Shown here: in pieces, positions 17,840-33,868 of the stretch | Layout of the letters: every line of letters begins with the position of its first letter | Numbering within the stretch: the stretch's first letter is position 1 | Assembly (NCBI RefSeq): GCF_029633965.1 | Contig: NZ_CP091277.1 | Location: forward strand, 1-64,000 | DNA from: Methanogenium sp. S4BF | Lineage (GTDB): Archaea > Halobacteriota > Methanomicrobia > Methanomicrobiales > Methanomicrobiaceae | Length of the DNA: 64,000 nucleotides | Reading direction: 5' to 3' | The notes under the pieces: generated by a model | What the model was told of the DNA's origin: nothing | The model's input: only the letters and a program-made list of their open reading frames with translations | The model's database searches: none | Made by a program: the position numbers and the translations under genes

Positions 17840-20800
17840 TCACATGAAATCCGCAAGCCCGAGCTGAATCTCCTTTTCCTCACCAAATGTTGAGACAAGA
17901 TACATATCCAGCATCTCGATACGCTGGCGGGTATACTCCGAGATATCGTAGTCCGTGCATATTTTCCGTGACATATCGATGTACTTCTTGACCGACCCCT
18001 CATGGACGGTCTGGATGATTTTACCGCCGCACCGGCATTTTCCTGCCATCGGCATCCTCCGGTATTTCGTATTGCACGTCGGGCACCGGAGTTTCTGGCG
18101 TGAGAAGGCGTTGAGATTGCCCTGCATGTCAGGGATGAAATGGGTTTTGAGCACCCGTTCTGCCACATCGTCCTCGTCCACTGCCCGGATGATTCTTCCC
18201 AGTTCAAACTCTGCCTCCAGTTTGTCAGACATGGTGGTGAGTGTGGTATAGGTGGAGAGGAGCGGCCCTGCCGAGATATTGCTCGTATCATGCGTGAACC
18301 CCACCCCTTCATACTGGCCCGGTGTGCCCAGGCGATTCTCCAGATGATCGATGATTTTTGAGAGCTCTTTGGGATGGCGGTATTGCAGTGCCGCTTCATA
18401 GAGTTCAATCGGATACGACCGGCAGGCATCGACATTATGTGATTCACCGTCCACTTCGGCAGGGTCCAGTTTGGTGGTAAGGACAAGCGGTGCATCCATC
18501 GAGCCGCCTCGGGTTTCCGGCAGAAACGACCGCGAAAAGTTTACCAGTCCGTCCATCAGGAGCATCACGCAGTCCTCATCACCGTCGCACTGGCCGGTAA
18601 AGATGCCGTTTGCAGCGAGTGTATGATCCTCTGCAACCGTCAGGCAGTAGACATACTCCCCGAAGTTTGGGATGTATTCCTTTGCCTGTATGGTGTCAGT
18701 GATCATCATCTGCCCTTCAAAGACCGGGACGCAGTCGCCCTCATTCAGCTCGACTGCACGGACCTTGCGCTGGTAGGCGAAGTCAGACACCAGCATCGCA
18801 TGGTCGGATGTGACGGTCACGTGCTTTCCCCGCGATGTGGTGAACCGGATCAGGTGATCGGGTGCCCGGTGAACAGATACCGAGGTCACCTTTTGCAGGT
18901 GTATCATCCCGCCGGTGTCAAGGGCATGGACCCAGAAGGCAGCCTTCGGGTCAGAGTAATAGGTGCCCACCTGGTCCAGACCGGGCCGGTCCAGATCAAA
19001 GTTCTCGACCACAAAATGCCCGATCGGAAGGCTGCGCCACTCTGCACCGTCATACACGTCGATCATCGTATCGGCCGCAAAACAGTTGCGGCGCTTTGCT
19101 GCATGGAAATACGGGTGGGCATATCCCACCGGCGCCTTTGAAACACCTATCACACGGGCAAGCACTCCTGCACTGGTGTGGGGCGCAAGACCCATCACCA
19201 GCTGGCCGACGATGTCCTCCCGTGTCTTTGCGTTATAATAGGGGGGCATTCCGTAGAGCTTCTCCAGCATCTCATCGATGAATTTTGCCACCCGCAGGAG
19301 CCACCCGGCGCAGTCTTCTGAGACGAGGATGTCCTGTGCCCGGAGCTCCAGTACCTGATCCGGGCTGGTGAGGGGCACGCCGTCGATATCCTGCGGGTAC
19401 CCCAGTTCAACAAGCCTTTCGACGCTGACCCCGATTTCATTCGGCCGGATATGGGTGAGGGGCAGGTCGATCATATCGTAGCGGAGGGTGCCGTCCTTGA
19501 AGACATACAACCCGTTTTTGGCCCGGAGAATTCCTTTTTCAATCGGTTCAACGGTCCTTTCCTTTGAAATAAGTCCGCGGACGCCTTTCAGGAGTTCGAC
19601 CTCATTCGGGCGCATCCCAAGGGCGGTGAGGGCGCGTGCGTACTCCTCCTTGACATTTATCTCCTCTTTTTGGAGGCAGACACCCTCAGCGCCGCAGACC
19701 GGGCAGGTAGTCTCATCCCTGAGGTCACGGGCGCAGCGGGGGCAGGTGAAGACCGCTTCGGTGTGCGTTCCGCACTCACTGCAGATGCACTTGTAGGTCT
19801 CCTCTCCGCATGAGGGGCACCGCCGCCGCCCGACGTCAGCATGGATAGTGCCGTCACGGTTGCCTTTCCCTTTTGAGGCCTCCTGGAATGAACGGCGTGA
19901 TCCGCCTTCATCCCCGACCGGGAAGATGGCATGGGGCGGGGGGCGCATCTCGCGTGCCTTTGACTTCCCGGGTCGCCCCATCCTTCCGCCGATTCGGATG
20001 CCCGCACGGGACCGCATCTGCAGTCCCGAGAGGTGCATGGCAAGAGAGAGGCCGTCAGCATCCGGTGCACTCTCCCATTCACTCCGCGTCTTCAAATCTG
20101 CGGTGAGGCCAAGGCATGCACAGAGCACCTTCGGGGCAGAGATGAGAATAACCCCGTTGGTAACGGTATGGGGGACGAGAAGAATCTCCAGGTGCCGCTT
20201 CTCCGGTGCATCCGCCGGGAGTGTGAGGCCCTCTGCCGTAATGCTTCCGGCGGCGGCCACCCAGTCCGCAAGGGCACGTACCTCCGCTGCGGTGAGGTCG
20301 TCCCAGATGTAGGTATATGCCGGGTGGAGGTAGCCTCCCGCACATGCCATCCCGATTGCTTCGGTCTCGTCTGCCGGGGTATGGGTGCCGCCGTCCAGAC
20401 GCCACCACTCCTCGCAATAGGTCGGCGGAATAAGCGGGTGATTGTTCTCCAGGAACTCACCGTATGAAACGAGCATCTCTCCAACGTCAAGGATCTCCTC
20501 CACCTTGCTCATCAGGCGGACGGCAGTCTCTGCGTCGTCGATGCGCAGGACACTGCCGTCCTCCAGCTTCACGGTCGGCCCTTCGATGCTGTCGACCGGC
20601 ACCACACCTGCTGCCTTGCCCGGCCGCTCCACCTTCATCTGGGTGCCGACGGCAAGGAAATTGCCGAGGAGGTGCAGGGTGGCCGGACTGAACCCTGCTG
20701 CTGCAAACCCGGTATTACGTGACCGGCCATAGCGGAGCCGGAATCCACCCGCCCGCATCGGGTATGAAAAGACCGGCCTGCCTGCAATCAGGTCCCGGAT

Positions 20801-21706
20801 GTATTTGTCCTTGGGTTTGACACCGGGTTTCTTCTCCTCGCCGTCATCGTCATCGTCTTTGCTCTTCGATGCCCCTGAGATGATGATATCCAGCCAGTCC
20901 CAGCCTTCCATGCGCACCTTATCGACGGTCTTTTTGATCTTCGGCGCCTTGAGGGCGAGCCCCTCTGCCACGACGAGTGCCATGCCGCCACGGACCGTGT
21001 TGGTCTCAATCCGCTCCAGGTTGCGGTACCCAGAGACCTCTACACGTTCGGTCGGCTCTCCCTCCACACAGACCGGGCAGTTCCTTATGATCACCCTGAG
21101 TTCATCATCCGTCGGGAGATACTGCAGGGAGACCTGGCTGTTATATTTTTTTATCTCTTCAACGTAGCGTTCGACTTCCTCTTTCCGGGGAATATACGCC
21201 GCCATTCCCAGTCCACGCCGGACATAATCCCCCACAAGTACCGAGAGCGCCTGGGCGGTACCTCCCGCACTCCGGATAGGTCCTGCATAGTAGATCTTCA
21301 GGTAATCGGTCCCGTCATCGTTTTTGCCGATTCCCACTTTAGCAATGCCTTCGGTAGGTGCTGCGACCACTCCTTCCGTAAGAAGGGCCATCGAGGTCCG
21401 GATGGCATGGTCCAGCGTCTCCTCGCGTGTGGTCTCCCCGAACATGTGTGCGATGAAGTCGTCACCAATCTTGAGTGCCACCTCTTCACGCGGCATGGTC
21501 TCCGCGAGTTCACGCAGCCGGGCGGCCACCCCGGTATATCCCAGCAGGGCCTCCACCCTGTCCGCGAGATCGTTTGCCACCGGAATCTCCACCGCTGTCC
21601 GCGGGTCAATCCCCTTTGCCCGCGCCTCATTGGCGACCCCAATTGCCTCTTTGAGCTTTGCCTCAAGCCCGGCAAAGTAAGCCTCCATCTCCGGTGACGC
21701 ATGCAT
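17840..21706 (-). CDS. polC: DNA polymerase D large subunit (DP2) with intein
   Basis: The precursor is 1288 residues, about 1123 after intein removal, which fits DP2, the catalytic subunit of the euryarchaeal replicative polymerase. N-terminal landmarks include [20 protein letters not shown] and [21 protein letters not shown] zinc-ribbon region ([19 protein letters not shown]..., then CPRC and CPVC) occupies roughly residues 620-680. The catalytic-core motif ...[18 protein letters not shown] is split by the intein, and a C-terminal [10 protein letters not shown]...CRCGG finger is present. DP2 works with the small exonuclease subunit DP1 and PCNA; DP1 is not in this window. The gene is divergent from thyA. 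Confidence 0.96.
18590..19084 (-). other. Mini-intein in polC with C-terminal Gln
   Basis: This encodes 165 residues (875-1039 of the precursor). It starts at Cys in [16 protein letters not shown] (block A), has [14 protein letters not shown] (block B with TxxH), then [18 protein letters not shown] (block F) and IFTGQ/C (block G). No LAGLIDADG endonuclease is present between blocks B and F, so it cannot home. The last residue is Gln instead of Asn and the penultimate is Gly instead of His. Archaeal PolII inteins at this site are known to use a C-terminal Gln. Insertion is between RRN and CDGDED in the catalytic core. Confidence 0.92.
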
Positions 21707-23242: not shown

Positions 23243-23545
23243 ATGGAGATAGATAGCACGGAGGCACCCCTGCAGCGCACAGTCGCGATCATCGCCACCG
23301 GGCGGGTCCAGCATGTCGGATTCCGTGCCTGTGTGAAGAAGATGGCACAAAACCTGACGGTCACAGGTGAAGTCATGAACCTGCCGGACGGGACCGTTTC
23401 CATCCGTGCCACAGCGGAACCTGTTATTATCGAAAAATTTCTCTCGCTTCTCTATTCGTGTCCGCGTGCGGTAGTACGTGACCTGCAGGTAACCGACACA
23501 GAACCCTGTGCATTTGACGGCTTCTCAGTCATTATCACGGATTAA
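23243..23545 (+). CDS. acyP: Acylphosphatase
   Basis: The product is 100 residues. The core GRVQHVGFRACVKKMAQ carries the phosphate-binding loop and catalytic Arg of VGFR, and GEVMNLPDGTVSI carries the catalytic Asn. Acylphosphatases hydrolyse carboxyl-phosphate bonds. The loop reads VQHVGFR rather than the usual VQGVGFR, a small variation. There is an N-terminal extension of about 12 residues. It stands alone between the divergent HEAT-repeat gene and the convergent Cas1 gene. Confidence 0.9.
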   Translation: MEIDSTEAPLQRTVAIIATGRVQHVGFRACVKKMAQNLTVTGEVMNLPDGTVSIRATAEPVIIEKFLSLLYSCPRAVVRDLQVTDTEPCAFDGFSVIITD

Positions 23546-23820: not shown

Positions 23821-24795
23821 TCAGCGGCACTTTGGGGCAGGATCGGTGAACTGCCCGGAGATCTGGTATGCCAGGGTAAACGGCCCTTCTCCCATCACTG
23901 CCTGGGAGAGGGAGAGTACATTATCATCGATTATCTCCTGGTTAATTGAGGCACGGAGGGCGGCAATCAGGGCATCAATTACGTCTTCGTTGAGATGGCA
24001 GCGCTTGGTGCTGATTTCATATCTGCCGTTAATCAGGCCTGCACGTGCGATGGAGAATACTGCGGCATCCACCATCGATGTTTTCAGGGGATCGATGAGG
24101 TCGGAGACGAGTGAGCGTTCCCCTTCCCGCAGAAATCCGTAATCCGGGTCGAGGTAGGCACCGATGACCGAGACGATGGTATTGCCGAAGAGCATCGCAT
24201 ACCCCAGGGAAAGCATGGCATTGACCGGGTCCTGATGGGGCCTCGTTGTCCTGCGGCGGAAGCCAAGCTCCGGTGAGAGGCTGCGAGCCATGATCTCATA
24301 ATACATGTCGCCGGTCAGTTTGTGCACCCGGCGGAGTTCATCCATGGTGATGAGATACTCAAGGTCTGCGAGGAGATTATGCAGGATATCCTGCTCACCT
24401 TCATAGAAGAGGCTCTCCCCCAGCTGGTCCCCGATACGCTCTATTGCGAGCAGCCGTGATTTTAATGTGGCCTTTGCGATCTCCTGTGCAAAGGTATGGG
24501 GCATCCGGGCCCGCTGGGCGTTTCTTATATCCGCCCCCACATCATTGCCAAAGGGGTTGAGCATGCCGACCGGTGTCCCGTCCGCATCAAAGAATGAGAT
24601 GGATGACCCCTGACGCAGCAGGCGTGTCACCGCAGAAGTATGGATATTGTGCCCTCCCACAAGGAGCAGGTGCTGGACTGACGAAAGTGGAAACTCCTTT
24701 TGTTCGCCCTTGTAGAGAATACTGAGTGTTGTTCCGGTTGACTTGATGTGGGCGCCGAAGCCCGCCACAACATGCCAGGAGTGTTCGCTTGTCAT
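23821..24795 (-). CDS. Stand-alone Cas1-family protein with altered active site
   Basis: The product is 324 residues with the full Cas1 fold pattern: an N-terminal beta domain (LLLVGGHNIHTSAVTRLLRQ, then SISFFDADGTPVGML), and a C-terminal helical domain containing ELGFRRRTTRPHQDPVNAML, LSLGYAMLFGN and LDPDYGFLREGERSLVSDLI. Cas1 integrases use a Glu, His, Asp metal site. By eye the Glu position (G-I-E-G in others) is Thr161 in KLTGD, and the His of GFLH is Arg223, while Asp232/235 remain. No CRISPR array, cas2, PolB or terminal repeats are nearby, so it is neither a CRISPR module nor an obvious casposon. The start is ATG 24795; an upstream TTG is at 24807. Confidence 0.88.
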   Translation of the reverse strand: MTSEHSWHVVAGFGAHIKSTGTTLSILYKGEQKEFPLSSVQHLLLVGGHNIHTSAVTRLLRQGSSISFFDADGTPVGMLNPFGNDVGADIRNAQRARMPHTFAQEIAKATLKSRLLAIERIGDQLGESLFYEGEQDILHNLLADLEYLITMDELRRVHKLTGDMYYEIMARSLSPELGFRRRTTRPHQDPVNAMLSLGYAMLFGNTIVSVIGAYLDPDYGFLREGERSLVSDLIDPLKTSMVDAAVFSIARAGLINGRYEISTKRCHLNEDVIDALIAALRASINQEIIDDNVLSLSQAVMGEGPFTLAYQISGQFTDPAPKCR

Positions 24796-24802
24796 ATATA
24801 CA

Positions 24803-24842
24803 CACAATAGATACAGTACACAAGTACTCCATCAGTACAGTA
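24803..24842. promoter_or_regulatory. Repeated GTAC-box in the Cas1 promoter region
   Basis: Three GTAC-centred words in 33 bp (CAGTACAC, AAGTACTC, CAGTACAG) lie just upstream of the Cas1 start. AATTAATTA beyond them could be the TATA element. The spacing suggests an operator, but no regulator is identified. Confidence 0.3.
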
Positions 24843-25009
24843 ATTAATTCATCGTTTGCGTTCTTGGGCCGTTTCAGCGTTCACACGGTGAAGAGGAACC
24901 GGATGTATGAATGATTTGCCAAATTGTGGCAAAATTTGGCTGTTCAGAGTTAAATTACCCTTAATCCTTTGTGCGAATACATATATGGTTTATATGCGTT
25001 AACTGGTGT

Positions 25010-25666: not shown

Positions 25667-25793
25667 CAGCACTCCCCTGCATAGTTATACAATACTTATT
25701 CCGGGTGCTGCTGCACGTCCGGAATACACAATATCATCCGGATGAAACAGGCATCCACGGTGCCCGGCCCGGCGAAATCAGTTGGTTGTCAGA

Positions 25794-27089
25794 ATGAAAT
25801 ACTGGAACAGGGAGATGGAGACCCTGAAGGGTGATGCACTGCACGCCCTTCAGGCAAAACGGCTCAGGTGGACTGTTGAGCAGGCAAATAACGTACCGTT
25901 CTATCGTAAGATGCTGCAGGAGGCAGGTGTGGGGCCTGAGGATATCCGGACGGTGGACGATGTGCAGAAACTGCCCTTTACCCGGAAAACTGATCTCCAG
26001 GGCGGCTACCCGTTCGGGTTCTTTGCCGTCCCGATGAAGGAGGTCGTGCGTATCCACACCACGTCCGGGACGACGGGAAAACCGACGGTGGTGGGATACA
26101 CCCGGCAGGACCTGGATCACTGGTCTGAACTGATTGCACGGAACCTGACGATGATTGGCCTGACTTCTGACGACATCTTCCAGAACGCGGTGAATTACGG
26201 GCTTTTTACCGGCGGTCTCGGGTTCCATTACGGTGCGGAGAAGGTCGGGATGACGGTCATCCCGAGCGCCACAGGCAATACCCGGCGTCAGATCGAGATG
26301 ATCGACGACTTCGGCGTGACTGCCATCCACTGCACGCCGAGTTATGCGATGCACATCGCCGAAGTGGCGGAGCAGATGGGGACGACGCTCCCCACCCTGA
26401 AGACCGGGATATTCGGGGCAGAACCCTGGTCTGACAATATGCGCGGGATCCTGGAGGGTAAACTCGGGCTGACCGCCTATGACTCCTACGGCATGTCCGA
26501 GATGTACGGGCCGGGTGCTGCCTTTGAGTGCCCTGAGCGAAACGGCCTCCACATCTGGCATGACATGTACCTCGCAGAAATAATCGACCCGCAGACCGGA
26601 GAGGTCCTCGGGCCCGGTGAACGCGGCGAACTGGTGGTCACTCCGCTCGTGAAGGAGGCGATGCCACTCCTGCGCTACCGGACGGGTGATATCACGATGT
26701 TTCTGGAGGAGGACTGCCCCTGCGGACGCGGGGTGAAGATCGCCCGCCTCCACGGCAGGAGTGATGATATGCTCGTAATTCGGGGGATAAATGTCTTCCC
26801 GTCCCAGATAGAGCATGTACTTCGTTCCGTGCCCGAAGTGGGCGATGAATTCCTCGTTTATGTGGACCGCGTGAACCATCTGGATGAGATGACGATTGAG
26901 GTGGAGATGAACCGCAGCACTTTCCACGGTGAACTCGAAGACCTGACACGGGCGCAGAACCGGGTGGTGGCGGCATTAAAAGAGGCGCTCAACCTCCGGA
27001 CCCGCGTGAAACTGGTTGAGTCCGATTCCCTGCCCCGGTATGAGGGGAAGGCAAAGCGGGTCATTGACCGGAGAGGTGATGATGTATGA
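25794..27089 (+). CDS. Phenylacetate-CoA ligase-like AMP-forming enzyme, copy 1
   Basis: The product is 431 residues and an ANL-superfamily adenylating enzyme of the PaaK type: HTTSGTTGKPTVVGYT (P-loop), YDSYGMSEMYGPG, ELVVTPLVKEAMPLLRYRTG and IRGINVFPSQIEHVL. PaaK-type enzymes convert aryl- or acyl-acetates to CoA thioesters with ATP. The start is ATG 25794; 25782 is a TTG. The next gene is a paralogue overlapping by 4 bp (ATGA), and a double-ACT protein ends the operon. In archaea this set accompanies indolepyruvate oxidoreductase and aromatic amino acid metabolism, so the substrate is probably an aryl acid (inference). Confidence 0.9.
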   Translation: MKYWNREMETLKGDALHALQAKRLRWTVEQANNVPFYRKMLQEAGVGPEDIRTVDDVQKLPFTRKTDLQGGYPFGFFAVPMKEVVRIHTTSGTTGKPTVVGYTRQDLDHWSELIARNLTMIGLTSDDIFQNAVNYGLFTGGLGFHYGAEKVGMTVIPSATGNTRRQIEMIDDFGVTAIHCTPSYAMHIAEVAEQMGTTLPTLKTGIFGAEPWSDNMRGILEGKLGLTAYDSYGMSEMYGPGAAFECPERNGLHIWHDMYLAEIIDPQTGEVLGPGERGELVVTPLVKEAMPLLRYRTGDITMFLEEDCPCGRGVKIARLHGRSDDMLVIRGINVFPSQIEHVLRSVPEVGDEFLVYVDRVNHLDEMTIEVEMNRSTFHGELEDLTRAQNRVVAALKEALNLRTRVKLVESDSLPRYEGKAKRVIDRRGDDV

Positions 27090-28387
27090 TTGCATGGGAC
27101 CCGAATATGGAACTGATGCCTGAGGCTGAACTGAAGCGAATGCAGTTTAAGCTCCTGAAGACGCTGGTATACCGGCTGTACTCGTTCTCGAACTTCTACC
27201 ATGAGCGGATGGTGGCGCACGGTGTGCACCCGGATGACATCACCCGGCTGGAGGATGTCGTAAAGCTGCCCTTTATGGTGAAATCCGACCTGCGGGACAA
27301 TTACCCGGACAAGATTTTCACGGCGGAGCCGGAAGAGCTGGTGCGCTATCATGTCTCATCAGGGACGACGGGTAAGCCGACGGTGGTGGGCTACACCAAA
27401 CATGATCTGGACACATGGACCGAGTCTCTGGCCCGTGCCCTCACGTCCTGTGGTGTCGGCCGCGGCGACGTGGTGCAGGTGGCGTATGGCTACGGCCTTT
27501 TCACGGGCGGCCTCGGCCTGCACTACGGGGCAGAACGCATCGGTGCCTCGGTGGTGCCGGCATCGGTGGGCAATACTGAACGCCAGCTTGAACTGATGCA
27601 GGATTTGCGGGTGACGGCCATCTGCTGCACCCCCTCGTACCTGGCGCATATCGGTGAGACGGCAAAGAAGCTGGGCATCTCCATCAAGGATGACACCCGC
27701 CTGAAAAGAGCGATTCTCGGGGCAGAGCCCTGGTCTGACCAGATGCGGGAGCGTATTGAAGAGGAGATGGGCATAAAGGCCTACAACATCTACGGCACCT
27801 CTGAACTGTCCGGCCCGATGTTTACGGACTGTGCCGAACAGAGCGGGATTCACATGTGGAGTGATATCGCCTTAGTCGAAATCATCGACCCGGAGACCGG
27901 CCGTCCGGTGCCGGACGGAGAGCAGGGCGAGATGGTGGTGACCATTCTCCAGAAAGAGGCTCTCCCTATCATCCGCTACCGGACAGGGGATATCACATCC
28001 ATCGATCATGCGCCCTGCCGGTGCGGCCGCACGCACCCGCGTATTTCACGTCTCTCCGGGCGGGTGGATGACATGCTCATCATCCGGGGGATTAATGTCT
28101 TCCCGTCGCAGGTGGAGCATGCTCTCCTCGGCATCCCAGAAGTCTCCGGCCATTTCATGATTGAAGTTGACCGGGTGGGTGCCCTTGACCAGATGCTTGT
28201 CAAAGTGGAGCTCAACCCGGAGGCATTCTCCGACAAAATAAACGATATTCTGGATATCCGTCGCAAGGTAGGACACACGCTTAAGAATATGCTCAACGTA
28301 AGTGTTGATGTAGAGATCAGTGAACCGGGGTCACTGCCGCGGTTTGAGGGAAAAGCAAAACGGGTTATCGACAGGAGGGTTCTGTAA
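27086..28387 (+). CDS. Phenylacetate-CoA ligase-like AMP-forming enzyme, copy 2
   Basis: The product is 433 residues, paralogous to the preceding gene over its length: HVSSGTTGKPTVVGYT, YNIYGTSELSGPM, IIRYRTGDI and IRGINVFPSQVEHAL. Both copies keep the catalytic GTTGKP loop and the hinge region, so both look active. Start overlaps the upstream stop (ATGA) and its stop overlaps the ACT gene start (TAATG), which implies translational coupling. Retention of two intact copies suggests different substrates or a heteromeric enzyme; which is not decidable from sequence. Confidence 0.9.
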   Translation: MIAWDPNMELMPEAELKRMQFKLLKTLVYRLYSFSNFYHERMVAHGVHPDDITRLEDVVKLPFMVKSDLRDNYPDKIFTAEPEELVRYHVSSGTTGKPTVVGYTKHDLDTWTESLARALTSCGVGRGDVVQVAYGYGLFTGGLGLHYGAERIGASVVPASVGNTERQLELMQDLRVTAICCTPSYLAHIGETAKKLGISIKDDTRLKRAILGAEPWSDQMRERIEEEMGIKAYNIYGTSELSGPMFTDCAEQSGIHMWSDIALVEIIDPETGRPVPDGEQGEMVVTILQKEALPIIRYRTGDITSIDHAPCRCGRTHPRISRLSGRVDDMLIIRGINVFPSQVEHALLGIPEVSGHFMIEVDRVGALDQMLVKVELNPEAFSDKINDILDIRRKVGHTLKNMLNVSVDVEISEPGSLPRFEGKAKRVIDRRVL

Positions 28388-28821
28388 TGGATGCAACGAA
28401 GTATACTATCAAACAGATCTCGGTCTTCTCCGAGAACAGGCCGGGGAGGCTTGCCGCAATTGCAGGCGCCCTGCAGGATGAAGGAATAAACATCCTCGCA
28501 TTTTCCATTGCCGAGGCAAACGGGTTTGGCGTCGTGCGGGCACTGGTGGACAAGCCGGAGGCCGCCTATACGAAACTCAATGCAATGGGGTTCATGGTCT
28601 CTTTCACCGATGTCATCGCTGTGAAGATGCGTGACGTGCCCGGCGGCCTCTTTGAGATGGCATCCATCCTCTCGGAGGCAGGCATCAATATCGAATATTC
28701 GTATGCCTACTCGGGCCGTGAGGCAGCGGTGCTCATTCTCCGCGTTGACCGGGTGGCTGAGGCAGTTGAGAAGGTTCTTGCACGCGGCGGGACGCTCCTG
28801 AGTGCAGATGAGTTTTCGTGA
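28387..28821 (+). CDS. Double ACT-domain protein
   Basis: The product is 144 residues and consists of two ACT domains. The first begins IKQISVFSENRPGRLAAIAG and the second around IAVKMRDVPGGLFEMASIL, each with the N-x-P/V-P-G ligand-loop pattern. ACT pairs bind amino acids and regulate metabolism. Position as third gene of the paaK operon suggests it senses an aromatic amino acid or related product. No catalytic domain is attached. The gene starts one base inside the preceding stop. Confidence 0.88.
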   Translation: MDATKYTIKQISVFSENRPGRLAAIAGALQDEGINILAFSIAEANGFGVVRALVDKPEAAYTKLNAMGFMVSFTDVIAVKMRDVPGGLFEMASILSEAGINIEYSYAYSGREAAVLILRVDRVAEAVEKVLARGGTLLSADEFS

Positions 28822-29422: not shown

Positions 29423-29758
29423 TTACACACCGGTGTGGGCGAACGTCCCGGCGATGACCGGGACCTTTGTCGCATCGCGGTATCCGGGAATGAGGGCGGC
29501 GAGGTCGCCCTCGGAGATCGTGGTCCCGATGTCCCGGACTTCGCTGAGAAATAAATCCATCAGTCCCATATGACCAAAGTTCTGTCTTTCTGTGCACCCG
29601 GAAATGTCCATTCCATTCACAAGCATATAAACAGATGTGCTAAGATTGAAGCAATCATGATGTTGGTGGTATAATCTGCTGATTCTCTTGACTATCTCTT
29701 GAACCTCCCGTTTATCCCATGCAATGGTAAACGTCAATTTCTCACCTACACAGTCGGG
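29423..29758 (-). pseudogene. Chimeric fragment of a WDK/DISG immunity gene
   Basis: The first ~60 residues (TFTIAWDKREVQEIVKRISR through NGMDISGCTERQN) are nearly identical to the start of the gene at 34024-35178. After ~29577 the sequence switches to GC-rich, unrelated DNA and ends IAGTFAHTGV. The position of the initiator ATG in the intact paralogue is ACG here. It is a 5' fragment fused to foreign sequence and probably not expressed. The DNA upstream also matches the paralogue's upstream region, so it came from a segmental duplication. Confidence 0.65.
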
Positions 29759-29845
29759 TTCCACTTATCGTTATACCACCTAAGTACCTGTGGTCCTTTC
29801 GTTGGGAATACGGTCGCGAAACCGTTTTTCAGATTCATGAGGATT
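29759..29845 (-). pseudogene. Remnant of a toxin-cassette 3' end
   Basis: In reverse complement this reads NGFATVFPTKGPQVLRWYND then KWNPTV-stop. It matches the last residues of the orphan toxin cassette at 35188 (TGVASVFPTKGPQVF..., NEKWNPTI-stop). It lies directly upstream of the immunity fragment, reproducing the toxin-end/immunity-start order found at 35.2 kb. Confidence 0.7.
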
Positions 29846-30011
29846 GAGTTGTAATACTAACTATGCCTCACAATCAGTAATATCAGGAAAATTATCTTCC
29901 GTCTGCTTCCATCTGGCAATCAATATAAACAAATAATACTTCACAACTCCAGAGTGGCTCCTTCTCCATACCTCTCCTTGTACCAATGAAAGATAACTCT
30001 CCTGTTATCCT

Positions 30012-30485
30012 TTAATACATGAATTCCTCATCGCCACGATATGCTGCATCAATGTTTTCTATCTCTTCCAAGAGCTTTTTCGTAGAAAGAAGAAAACCCT
30101 CTGTAAATTGTTTGAGTGGAACTTTAAGAAACTGAAATTCCTTATTTACAAAATTGATATATTTTATTGTCAACATGTCTGTCAATTTGTCATAATAAAC
30201 AAAAAATTTAAAACCTCCCGCAAATACCTCATTTTTACAAGATGCTATGTAACGGAATTCCGTATCACCTAATTTTTCAGTATCAATCGATTTGAATACA
30301 AAAAATATATTGAGAAATAGGGTGTCAAACTGTGAGATATCGCCTCTCGGTACCTTGTCAAGACCGGAAATATCCACTCCCTCGATATAGACCTGGATGG
30401 GGACCCAGAAATCAAGGAGTCGAAACTCTCCTTCTCCTGATCGGACATTCCGTTCAAGTTTTTCCTTGTCCCAAACAATTTTCAT
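30012..30485 (-). CDS. WDK/DISG-module immunity-like protein, frameshifted at its end
   Basis: The product is 157 residues of one WDK/DISG module: MKIVWDKEKLERNV, IQVYIEGVDISGLDKVPRG, then FKFFVYYDKLTDMLTIKYI. The start is placed at 30485, where GGATGAT precedes the ATG by 6 nt. The frame ends EEFMY-stop. In the next frame the DNA continues LKDNRRVIFHWYKERYGEG, matching the IRDWYQERYG end of paralogues, so a single-base loss has removed the C-terminus. No SUKH domain follows. The role as toxin immunity protein is inferred from location and paralogy. Confidence 0.7.
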   Translation of the reverse strand: MKIVWDKEKLERNVRSGEGEFRLLDFWVPIQVYIEGVDISGLDKVPRGDISQFDTLFLNIFFVFKSIDTEKLGDTEFRYIASCKNEVFAGGFKFFVYYDKLTDMLTIKYINFVNKEFQFLKVPLKQFTEGFLLSTKKLLEEIENIDAAYRGDEEFMY

Positions 30486-30551
30486 TATTTTATCATCCTT
30501 TATTGTGTTCCGGAATTGGGCATTTGATTCCATTGTTCGTGCAAAAGATGT

Positions 30552-31727
30552 TCATTGACTACATACTATAATTTGATGGTACGGCAATTCCTCATGGTAT
30601 CGTTCGTAATACCACTCACGGAGAGTGGAAATCTCATCAGCCATCCACTGGTATTCGTCGGTGTCAACAACCTCAGGCCAGACCTCCCTTACTTCCCGCA
30701 AGAACTCCTCGTTTCCCTGAACAACAGCGATTGCGAACCCTTTGAGGGGGGCCGTTGTCTGCGCATGATAGTTTATCGCCCCACTCATATAATCGACCAG
30801 AATCGTCTCATTATCATCCAGAAGGGTTACCGTGAATTCAAAACCCGGGCCGGAAACCTCCGGTACATCGGAAGAAAAATGTATTGTCTCCGGATCGATA
30901 TGTTCCGGGTCAAGCAACTGAAACACCAGATTAATATTGGGAAAGAGAAAATCAAAAAATGTCCATGCTCCGCCGATGATATCAACGTCATCGATGAATA
31001 GATGGAAGCCCATTTCGAATCCCTTCCATGTTTCGGGGTCGTAATGGATGGCAGATACTGTTCGGATTCTATCTTCCAGTTCATTCCGGTTCCAGATTAG
31101 CTGTATATGACCCGGAGATTTTTTGATATCGGAATTCGGGATTTCCCTATTCGCAGGTGCTCCTGTCCGTATAATCGTGTGGGTGGCATCTTCCCCATAC
31201 ACCTCTCGATACCAGTCTTTGATAATATCCAGATCCGCCCTGAAGATCCGGTAACTGGAGTCTCTGCACAGTGTAGAGATGTTCAGGATTTCCCCGATCA
31301 TCTCTTCTGCTGAAAGGATAACACCGGTTGCAAAGTCTCTGAGCGGGATAGCCACGGATTGAAATTCTTTTTTCCCGGTATAGATATAATCGAAGGTCAC
31401 GAGATCAGTCGTCCTGTCGTATTGCACGAAATATCGGAATCCTTTTCCCAAAACGCAGTTCTCAAGATTATAGGTGAGATGGAAGGGTTTATCCCCCAGC
31501 CGCTCCGGGTCGATGGAGCGAAAGACCGAGAAGGTGCCAAGGAATACGTCCATTAACCGTGAATAAGCGTAGTCTTGTCTTTCTTCCAGTCCAGAGATGT
31601 CCACGCCACCCACTACGACATGGAATAATGATGCGATGCCGAAACAATCCAGATGTCGTGGTTGTGAACTGGTAATACTCTCTATTACATGTTTCACCCC
31701 CATTTTATCCCATTCAATGGTAAACAT
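30552..31727 (-). CDS. Two-module WDK/DISG immunity-like protein
   Basis: The product is 391 residues with two copies of the module. The N-terminal copy has MFTIEWDKMGVKHVIES, VVGGVDISGLEERQDYAYSR and a WYREVYGED end. The second copy, from about residue 210, has IQLIWNRNELEDRIR, FHLFIDDVDIIGGAW and ends in LREWYYERYHEELPYH. No signal peptide or membrane helix is present, so it acts in the cytoplasm. About 371 bp (31191-31561) is ~93% identical to 34642-35012 in the related gene, while the first 55 codons differ. This indicates recombination between paralogues. Confidence 0.75.
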   Translation of the reverse strand: MFTIEWDKMGVKHVIESITSSQPRHLDCFGIASLFHVVVGGVDISGLEERQDYAYSRLMDVFLGTFSVFRSIDPERLGDKPFHLTYNLENCVLGKGFRYFVQYDRTTDLVTFDYIYTGKKEFQSVAIPLRDFATGVILSAEEMIGEILNISTLCRDSSYRIFRADLDIIKDWYREVYGEDATHTIIRTGAPANREIPNSDIKKSPGHIQLIWNRNELEDRIRTVSAIHYDPETWKGFEMGFHLFIDDVDIIGGAWTFFDFLFPNINLVFQLLDPEHIDPETIHFSSDVPEVSGPGFEFTVTLLDDNETILVDYMSGAINYHAQTTAPLKGFAIAVVQGNEEFLREVREVWPEVVDTDEYQWMADEISTLREWYYERYHEELPYHQIIVCSQ

Positions 31728-31738
31728 CTATTTCCCCT

Positions 31739-32182
31739 TCAGTAAAGCATATCCAGAAATGCAGTGAATGAATCCGCGATGACAACTCTTCGTCTTGGTC
31801 TCTTTATTCCGGGTGTCGCGTATAAGATCCGTGGATGCGTCCCCCTCCTGTAATCTAGGCAGATGTAGTTGCCTTCCGTATCCTGTGCAATGGGGCAGGG
31901 GCCCCTGCTGTGACCACCTGGCGAATGCCAGCCGACGGCGGTGAAATACCTCCGGAAAAAGTCTTTCGATCTCGGGTCGAGACTCAACAGTTTTGTAATT
32001 GCCTTCCCCGTCTCATCCCTTACATCAAAGCGACACGGAACGGGACTCCCGCCCCCATTTTCAGTAGCACATGTGGTATAATCCTCCGGCAGTGTCACGC
32101 GAAACATTTTCTCAATGCAGGGTAACAGGTCGTTGAGGTCTTCCCTTTTCTCTTCGGTATTCTCCCATCGAATATCTTTCAT
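31739..32182 (-). CDS. SUKH (SMI1/KNR4) family immunity protein
   Basis: The product is 147 residues. It shows the SUKH pattern: an N-terminal helix ending in IEKMFRVTLPEDYTTCA, then ENGGGSPVPCRF, a central ISLDPRSKDFF-like region and a C-terminal DSFTAFLDML helix. The family includes many antitoxins of nuclease-type polymorphic toxins. The start at 32182 is chosen for GAGGAG about 8 nt upstream. It follows the SUKH-containing gene at 32215 in the same array, within an immunity operon. The target toxin is unknown. Confidence 0.8.
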   Translation of the reverse strand: MKDIRWENTEEKREDLNDLLPCIEKMFRVTLPEDYTTCATENGGGSPVPCRFDVRDETGKAITKLLSLDPRSKDFFRRYFTAVGWHSPGGHSRGPCPIAQDTEGNYICLDYRRGTHPRILYATPGIKRPRRRVVIADSFTAFLDMLY

Positions 32183-32214
32183 AACGCGTCTCCTCTCCCT
32201 TTCATCCCGGTCAA

Positions 32215-33255
32215 TTACTCGCACCGCTCCATTATGTCAAACAGTTCGGTGAATGAGTTGCACAGAAATTGTATGGATTTTTCAGGGTCCATTTCGTAGA
32301 ATACCCAGTGGACTACCTTTGGAGGAAAGCCTTCCCGGTAATCAAAGCAGATAAGATCGTGGTTCAGGGCATCGGCGAAAGGAATCACATTGTCCGGCAG
32401 ATAGGCTCTGGAGCCCTGTACCGGGCAGTTCAGGGAGTAATAGAGAAACAATATATTGAGTTTCTCCGGGTCGAAACCGGAGAGACGGACGAACTGGTTT
32501 CTTCCCCCTGGGATTTTTTCGTTGACGATGATATTGTAAGGATAAGGAAACCCCATTGAATGTTTCCTCACGCAAGCCAGGTAGTCATCGGGATACGTGA
32601 TGTCAAGGATCTTCTGCACGCAGTCGATCATCTCCTCGTCGGCGGCATCCTCAGCGCCTATCCAGCGTATACTGTCATCGGTGACTGTCGCGGCAGGTTT
32701 CATCTCAATAGGGGGGGACGAGGCGGTCGTCCCATACCGTTCCTGATACCAGTCCCGGATGACTTCCATGTCCTCTTTCAATGCAATATAATTGTCATCT
32801 TCCCTTAATTCGGGAGCGAGTTGCAATACTTCTTCAAGAATTTCAATAGATGAATGAAGTACACCATCGACAAAATCTCTTAAATCGATTTCCAGAATCC
32901 GGTACTCGGGGTGTACAAAGTTGTGATATTTTAAGGTAAGACTGTCTCTTTCTTCATTATAATATATATAAAGATTAAATGAGCCGCCATCCACTCGATT
33001 TTTCACACTTGATATATGGTGAAAATTATCTTCTTGGAGATTCTCCGGATCAATAGAATGGAATATATGGAAAAATTCCAAGAAAAGGCCATCAAAATGT
33101 GTATTGTTCCCTTTTGGAACTTCTTCAAGTCCTGATATATCAACGCTGTTTGCATAAACCTGTATGGGTGTTAGAAAACCGATAGGCCCAGCTTCTCCTG
33201 TTCCGGATTGAATACCTCGCTTTACATCCTTTTTATTCCATACAATCCTGAACAT
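32215..33255 (-). CDS. Fusion of WDK/DISG module and SUKH domain
   Basis: The product is 346 residues. The N-terminal half is a WDK/DISG module (FRIVWNKKDVKRGIQ, IQVYANSVDISGLEEVPKG, IRDWYQERYG). A short linker leads to a SUKH-like domain (VQKILDITYPDDYLACVRKH, YPYNIIVNE, FLCNSFTELFDIM). AGGAGGAG lies 5 nt before ATG 33255, a strong ribosome site. Joining the unknown module to a recognised immunity domain is the best local evidence that the module itself has an immunity role. It is cytoplasmic, with no membrane segment. Confidence 0.8.
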   Translation of the reverse strand: MFRIVWNKKDVKRGIQSGTGEAGPIGFLTPIQVYANSVDISGLEEVPKGNNTHFDGLFLEFFHIFHSIDPENLQEDNFHHISSVKNRVDGGSFNLYIYYNEERDSLTLKYHNFVHPEYRILEIDLRDFVDGVLHSSIEILEEVLQLAPELREDDNYIALKEDMEVIRDWYQERYGTTASSPPIEMKPAATVTDDSIRWIGAEDAADEEMIDCVQKILDITYPDDYLACVRKHSMGFPYPYNIIVNEKIPGGRNQFVRLSGFDPEKLNILFLYYSLNCPVQGSRAYLPDNVIPFADALNHDLICFDYREGFPPKVVHWVFYEMDPEKSIQFLCNSFTELFDIMERCE

Positions 33256-33352
33256 TGTTTCTCCTCCTACAAAGTTGGATACCATCCTTCATTTGGAATC
33301 TATTTATATACCTGTGAACCACTGATTGGAATGATTCTCCGGAGACAGTGCT

Positions 33353-33868
33353 TTACTGCATTAGAATTTGGTGAGTATTGTTATAACAATCCCTGAGTTT
33401 TTGTACTTCCAGAGTTTCTTCTAACATTGGATTAATTGATAATAATTGGTCAATCAGATCCATTGTGGCAATTTGTAATGCCTCCACCCATTCCTCAAGA
33501 GAAACCACAATTTCTTTCCAAGGCGGGTAATTTGGATTATTCGACTTAAATATCACCTCAATTTGCGTACCATATGGAATAAATAATAGGACGTGAGGAT
33601 CATCCAAAAAATGGAGTCCGACAATTTGTCCTTTTGCAATATTTGGAATAAGTGCGTGCATGTCAACGATCAGATACCAGACATAATCGTTGATGTATTT
33701 CGATAATTCGCTGACTGTCTCTGTCAAGACGGTATCATCATTACCGACATAAATGTCACCAGCAATATCGTGTGGTTGGATCTCTCTATTTGGGTACAAC
33801 TTTAATGGATCGCTATCCCATGTTTCGGGAGAAGAGATACGTATTTTAATTAAATTTTTTGACGACAT
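33353..33868 (-). CDS. Divergent immunity-like protein
   Basis: The product is 171 residues. It lacks the WDK and DISG motifs, but its C-terminal VVSLEEWVEALQIATMDLID aligns with the IPLRDFATGVILSAEEMIGE helix region of the WDK/DISG proteins, and LRDCYNNTHQ may be the degenerate WYQERYG end. There is no signal peptide. GAGGTT lies about 7 nt upstream of the ATG. Placement inside the immunity array is the main clue to its role, and it may be a distant member of the same fold. Confidence 0.55.
   Translation of the reverse strand: MSSKNLIKIRISSPETWDSDPLKLYPNREIQPHDIAGDIYVGNDDTVLTETVSELSKYINDYVWYLIVDMHALIPNIAKGQIVGLHFLDDPHVLLFIPYGTQIEVIFKSNNPNYPPWKEIVVSLEEWVEALQIATMDLIDQLLSINPMLEETLEVQKLRDCYNNTHQILMQ

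Follow-up and report, generated by a model that had tools for sequence, protein, structure and literature searches.

A stand-alone Cas1 with an incomplete active site, conserved across Methanomicrobiales as a probable domesticated pseudoenzyme

The catalytic set of Cas1 consists of E141, H208, D218 and D221 in E. coli numbering, and among the Cas1-solo groups only group 2, the casposases, keeps the site in full (PMC4046053). Cas1-solo group 1, described in 2013 (Makarova et al., as cited in later work), is exclusive to Methanomicrobiales and includes no member with a full active site (Krupovic 2014, PMC4046053; repeated in PMC9939771); additionally, no sign of horizontal transfer was found in this group (PMC4046053). 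The solo outgroup of Krupovic et al. has been taken as probably vestigial (PMC9755687). The idea that solo Cas1 proteins of archaea normally keep their site, on which the original prediction for the present locus had relied, is thus wrong for group 1, every member of which is without the full set (PMC4046053).

The window, that is, the whole stretch of 64,000 nt analysed here, comes from the 2.51 Mb single-contig genome of Methanogenium sp. S4BF and harbors a cas1 gene (solo cas1, product P0001) that encodes 324 aa from the ATG at 24795, or 328 aa if the start is the TTG at 24807 (Table 1). Its product is unquestionably a full-length Cas1-fold protein of the Cas1 superfamily (PF01867). It matches Pfam PF01867 Cas_Cas1 over residues 9–280 (E = 9e-52) and the NCBIfam model TIGR00287 cas1 (E = 1e-35), its AlphaFold2 model has a mean pLDDT of 88.7 and a pTM of 0.87, and the best 50 Foldseek matches in the PDB are all Cas1 or casposase structures, with TM up to 0.81, in agreement with the complete Cas1 fold that had been recognized by eye. 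The model is disordered at residues 313–324, and the majority of relatives stop near residue 310.

Table 1. Features at and around the solo cas1 gene, in window coordinates
Feature	Position	Strand	Basis or remark
Acylphosphatase gene, convergent downstream neighbour	23243..23545	+	Pfam PF00708, neighbourhood clustering
solo cas1	23821..24795	-	Pfam/NCBIfam, PDB sequence and fold searches, 124-ortholog alignment
Conserved element AAACGATGAATTAAT, candidate promoter/operator	24843..24857	-	62 nt before the solo cas1 ATG
Two PaaK-like CoA ligases and an ACT-pair protein	25782..28821	+	Pfam AMP-binding, ACT

The catalytic columns were placed by structure-anchored HMMER alignments and by a MAFFT alignment of 133 sequences (124 orthologs and nine other Cas1). 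In solo Cas1 they correspond to H158 (Glu), R223 (His), D232 (E. coli D218) and D235 (E. coli D221), the Glu column being located by RRVHKLTGDMYY against RGVEGxxxxxYF. The loss of both Glu and His that had been proposed therefore stands, and both alignments agree with the earlier choice of Arg223 for the His; the Glu column, however, is His158, three residues away from the Thr161 chosen by eye. Of the three positions considered by eye, only an Asp had been thought conserved; D232 and D235 are both acidic, so two of the four published catalytic residues persist. The full E-H-D-D/E set is found in none of the 124 orthologs compared to all 26 CRISPR Cas1 and casposases; the Glu column is E in 8 orthologs and the His column H in 47, and never are both present in the same protein. 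In the 26 other Cas1, taken from CRISPR loci and a casposon, the control columns hold E, H, D and E/D in 26 of 26 each, which indicates that the alignment is sound and the loss in the solo group real. Column 232 is D/E in 124/124 orthologs and column 235 in 109/124, and column 158 is H in 61/124 and column 223 R in 20/124, with H/F/S/Y/Q/E found at 158 and H/Y/R/N/S at 223. By entropy within the solo group, D232 ranks 33rd of 308, 158 ranks 198th and 223 ranks 218th; variability in the 124 orthologs is on the high side at positions 158, 161 and 223. T161 and R223 are thus products of drift rather than a new site and are not conserved features of the relatives, substitute catalytic residues at 158 and 223 were rejected since both columns vary, and no conserved Glu or His elsewhere in the metal site of the orthologs takes the place of the lost ones. 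The Glu and His columns are no longer constrained in the solo group, with the acidic pair partly kept. An active Cas1 integrase/endonuclease has E141, H208, D218 and D221 all present, which is not the case here, and the protein is predicted to be catalytically dead.

Orthologs were found in 217 of 232 Methanomicrobiales genomes and in 133 of the 135 of high quality, across six family-level groups and single-copy as a rule. Four genomes without the gene (G061, G138, G160 and G093) were examined via the acylphosphatase neighbour and represent either loss or an assembly gap. Across 391 Halobacteriota genomes the strong profile matches all lie within Methanomicrobiales, the last member of the order scoring 287 bits and the first outsider 126 bits; this outsider is a CRISPR Cas1 located in a cas operon, beside Cas2 and effector genes. 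In the tree the solo Cas1 proteins form one clade (support 100/100), to which neither casposases nor CRISPR Cas1 belong. In about 47 of the 133 high-quality genomes (hand count), several of them complete or single-contig, the solo gene is the only PF01867 match.

Gene order around solo cas1 is also conserved: among 56 loci the acylphosphatase gene is convergent downstream in 44, the gene on the upstream side is transcribed divergently in 46 and one encoding a PaaK-like protein is at most four genes away in 41, the CoA ligase block being divergent in most genera. This is evidence of vertical descent only. The acylphosphatase and PaaK-like/ACT genes are syntenic markers, the acylphosphatase not being claimed as a functional partner, and the search for an operon partner as a functional clue was abandoned because divergent upstream and convergent downstream neighbours are the usual arrangement, which leaves no operon. 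Other features of the region include the large subunit DP2 of PolD (17840–21706, minus strand), which is the polymerase near solo cas1 and apparently contains an intein, and a run of small proteins (29423–33868, minus strand), some of them mutually similar and without Pfam match, that looks like a tandem duplication family and within which a SUKH-family protein is located (32215–33285). An imperfect inverted repeat (GCCAAATT..AATTTGGC, about 24920–24945) between solo cas1 and the DUF308 gene is not evident in relatives.

No CRISPR-like array occurs among the repeats at 14–34 kb of the window, and the Pfam scan of the neighbours detected no Cas2, PolB or HNH, as had been noted from the sequence; in the loci that were examined, solo cas1 showed no linkage to cas loci either. 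PF09827 Cas2 has no match anywhere in the host genome, type I-E Cas2 being another family. The gene possesses neither the adjacent cas2, cas operon or array of a CRISPR adaptation module nor the PolB/HNH/HTH neighbours, terminal inverted repeats, intact site and casposase-clade position of a casposon, and descent from a casposase is ruled out by the tree and by the missing casposon neighbours. The host genome does carry a casposon, at a distance of about 750 kb, and at 1.27 Mb a type I-E cas1; each of the two has an intact Cas1 of its own. The use of solo Cas1 by a CRISPR or casposon module lying outside the window, which had been raised as an objection to the original prediction, was rejected on this ground and because many relatives are without any such module. 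The casposon-like island itself (contig C1, about 774157–781000; L206:157–6957) comprises an intact 407-aa casposase, whose C-terminal extension resembles that of the M. mazei enzyme, together with an HTH-like gene and a PolB-like protein of 909 aa, and has restriction-modification genes nearby; at a distance of about 16 kb, a fragment of Cas1 interrupted by a stop (C1:758649–758975, L003) is a possible remnant of a second copy. The type I-E cas1, with an intact active site, is located at C1:1273397 (L004, L198).

The solo gene is under purifying selection, as indicated by a dN/dS of 0.04–0.17 in 12 within-genus or close pairs, and eleven columns are invariant in the 124 orthologs at a divergence down to about 33% identity; selection and conservation together rule out a pseudogene. 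G133, E134, E153, R156, E167, R171 and R265 are invariant or nearly so and are not features of CRISPR Cas1, where the R156 column is mostly Gly. R182 is invariant in the solo group and common to most CRISPR Cas1, and R181 is invariant or nearly so. E153, R156, E167 and R171 belong to one helix and, by helical-wheel spacing, point to a side other than that of 158; consequently they look structural or interface-forming.

The capacity of the protein to hold DNA was considered with the M. mazei casposase as reference, in which H232, K238, Y243, R250, Y206, R280 and R287 hold the transposon end (PMC6977970). At these columns, matched by alignment rather than by superposition, solo Cas1 has R, E, S, K, L, N and D respectively, and in the solo group the share of basic residues is 79% at R250, 35% at K238, 25% at R287 and 2% at R280. 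The group has a median pI of 6.2 and a net charge of -5 compared to 9.0 and +6 for CRISPR Cas1 and casposases; in pairs from the same genome the solo protein is the more acidic in 9 of 13, the other four being about equal or reversed. The grip on the 3' end appears to have been dismantled along with catalysis, and with these contacts lost and the charge acidic, general DNA binding cannot safely be assumed, although R182 and the new conserved arginines may leave room for binding in another way. Of the original suggestion of a domesticated DNA-binding protein, domestication is thus upheld by order-wide presence, purifying selection and retention without other Cas1, whereas DNA binding is partly contradicted by the lost DNA-end contacts and the acidic charge.

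Alignment of the upstream DNA in Methanogenium and its sister genus revealed one conserved block in otherwise unalignable sequence, a 15-bp element (AAACGATGnnTTAAT) with a 12-base core that is nearly single-copy per genome. A weight matrix found the element (consensus AAACGATGnnTTAATs) before 71 of the 124 orthologs, usually 54–88 nt before the start, compared to 2 for shuffled controls; a handful of the 71 matches (Methanocorpusculum-like, 198 nt) are apparently within the upstream gene and probably due to chance. In 26 whole genomes the core AACGATGNNTTAAT gave 22 matches, 21 of them directly before solo cas1, and the reversed-pattern control gave 3. A global regulon site was rejected at exact-match stringency, given that 21 of the 22 matches are at solo cas1; a tiny upstream ORF (ATG-NNT-TAA/TGA) accounts for about 44 of 61 strict matches and fails in Methanospirillum-like and other clades, and no Rfam match points to a known RNA family. 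Methanoregula has a second conserved block about 22 nt downstream of the element, and this pair fits a putative TATA-like element plus initiator. An upstream element that is different yet equally conserved precedes the genes of a nearby family (cluster 6), so conservation alone is no proof of an operator at solo cas1; the cluster 6 element (TAAACCATATAATGCTATA) is very conserved in many loci (e.g., L046, L048 and L120) and common across families. On the other hand, a nearly single-copy site is what autoregulation would be expected to look like.

The explanation considered the most probable is that solo Cas1 has been domesticated into a catalytically dead pseudoenzyme whose core function lies outside CRISPR, and its having been exapted to a non-catalytic role outside CRISPR is the part that can be held with high confidence. 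The incomplete site in the examined orthologs, the fold, the selection, the breadth of occurrence and the independence from other Cas1 are what the sequence data directly support. An ancestor of Methanomicrobiales would have fixed a Cas1 no longer working in CRISPR adaptation; metal-dependent strand transfer would then have been lost as E158 and H223 drifted, together with most of the grip on DNA 3' ends, the fold being retained as a binding module. Cas1 dimerises via its N-terminal sheet, and the present-day protein may be a non-cutting homodimer with a housekeeping or regulatory role, its partner being either DNA, such as its own promoter or branched DNA, or another protein. The solo outgroup has been read instead as an inactivated Cas1 simply not yet lost (PMC9755687), and the missing catalytic residues, the absence of adjacent cas genes and the absence of a known function would suit such a relic; its near-universal presence in the high-quality genomes of six family-level groups, the low dN/dS, the invariant columns, the conserved upstream element and gene order, and a gene that outlives the CRISPR adaptation modules in about 47 genomes make this highly improbable. 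Those same genomes, several of them complete, and the lack of linkage to cas loci in the loci examined also weigh against a part in CRISPR adaptation or casposition as a regulatory or accessory subunit, such as the dead member of a Cas1 hetero-oligomer. A part of this kind is quite unlikely even though the integration complexes of both CRISPR and casposases include Cas1 subunits that are non-catalytic (PMC6977970) and intact Cas1 proteins also occur in some genomes, the host included.

The acidic pair D232/D235 is largely kept, which speaks against a pseudoenzyme inasmuch as residual metal binding is possible. The protein might still be an enzyme if this pair formed a different metal site with His158 (and His223 in other members) or with the family-specific E134, E153 and E167; the acidic residues at 232 and 235, the His at 158 in about half of the orthologs and the three invariant or nearly invariant Glu would fit. 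But 158 and 223 vary freely, unlike a catalytic site, the helix face of E153/R156/E167/R171 is not that of 158, and the positions that hold the 3' end in casposases are mostly lost, so an alternative metal site seems unlikely. Within the favoured pseudoenzyme explanation, the preferred version, put forward tentatively, is sequence-specific DNA binding that would include the protein's own promoter element (autoregulation); its narrowest form, a non-cutting binder with, in essence, a single site on the chromosome (AAACGATGnnTTAAT at the promoter of its own gene) acting as an autoregulated order-wide core factor, is doubtful. The acidic pI and net charge count against strong DNA binding, and the upstream element may be no more than a well-conserved promoter, seeing that cluster 6 has an equally conserved but different element. 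A pure protein scaffold that has lost nucleic-acid binding is a possibility of about the same standing as sequence-specific binding: it agrees with the acidic protein, with the loss of the basic residues at 274, 275 and 298 and with that of the residues matching casposase K238, Y243, R280 and R287, and less well with the invariant R182, which most CRISPR Cas1 have as well, with R181, R171, R156 and R265, with a position 238 that is basic in 79%, or with a single-site upstream element that would fit a self-binding protein.

Transitions from CRISPR to housekeeping roles have been discussed mainly for effectors and casposons. Here it is the central adaptation protein that, without its chemistry, appears to have turned into a core gene that does not depend on CRISPR and is near-universal in an archaeal order. 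Group 1 has been passed over as inactive or vestigial, and the census and the selection evidence argue for a function, which the invariant residues and the upstream element render testable. Additionally, the presence of Cas1 is no evidence of CRISPR adaptation in Methanomicrobiales, since about one third of the high-quality genomes possess only the presumably dead protein.

In comparison with known systems, the best PDB match by both Foldseek E-value and profile E-value is the Cas1 of A. fulgidus (PDB 4n06), which shares about 20% identity and is nucleolytically active according to the title of its entry. Type III and type I CRISPR Cas1 of the same phylum (e.g., loci L185, L186 and L188) are the best-scoring proteins outside the group and share full-length homology and fold, but they possess an intact site, are usually basic and have Cas2 and effector genes adjacent. 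The group 2 casposase of M. mazei (PDB 6opm) has the same fold (TM 0.81) and is also stand-alone; casposases, however, keep the catalytic set, those of family 2 with a C-terminal HTH and PolB, whereas solo Cas1 is without these and falls in another clade. From its published description, Cas1-solo group 1 is the class to which solo Cas1 is assigned: both are restricted to the same order, stand-alone, incomplete in their site and vertically inherited within one clade of their own, with no defining difference between them. The kind is therefore already known, and what is added to it is the census, the retention without other Cas1, the evidence of selection and against a vestigial protein, a corrected mapping of the active site, a residue-level profile, the charge shift, the lost DNA-end contacts and the upstream element.
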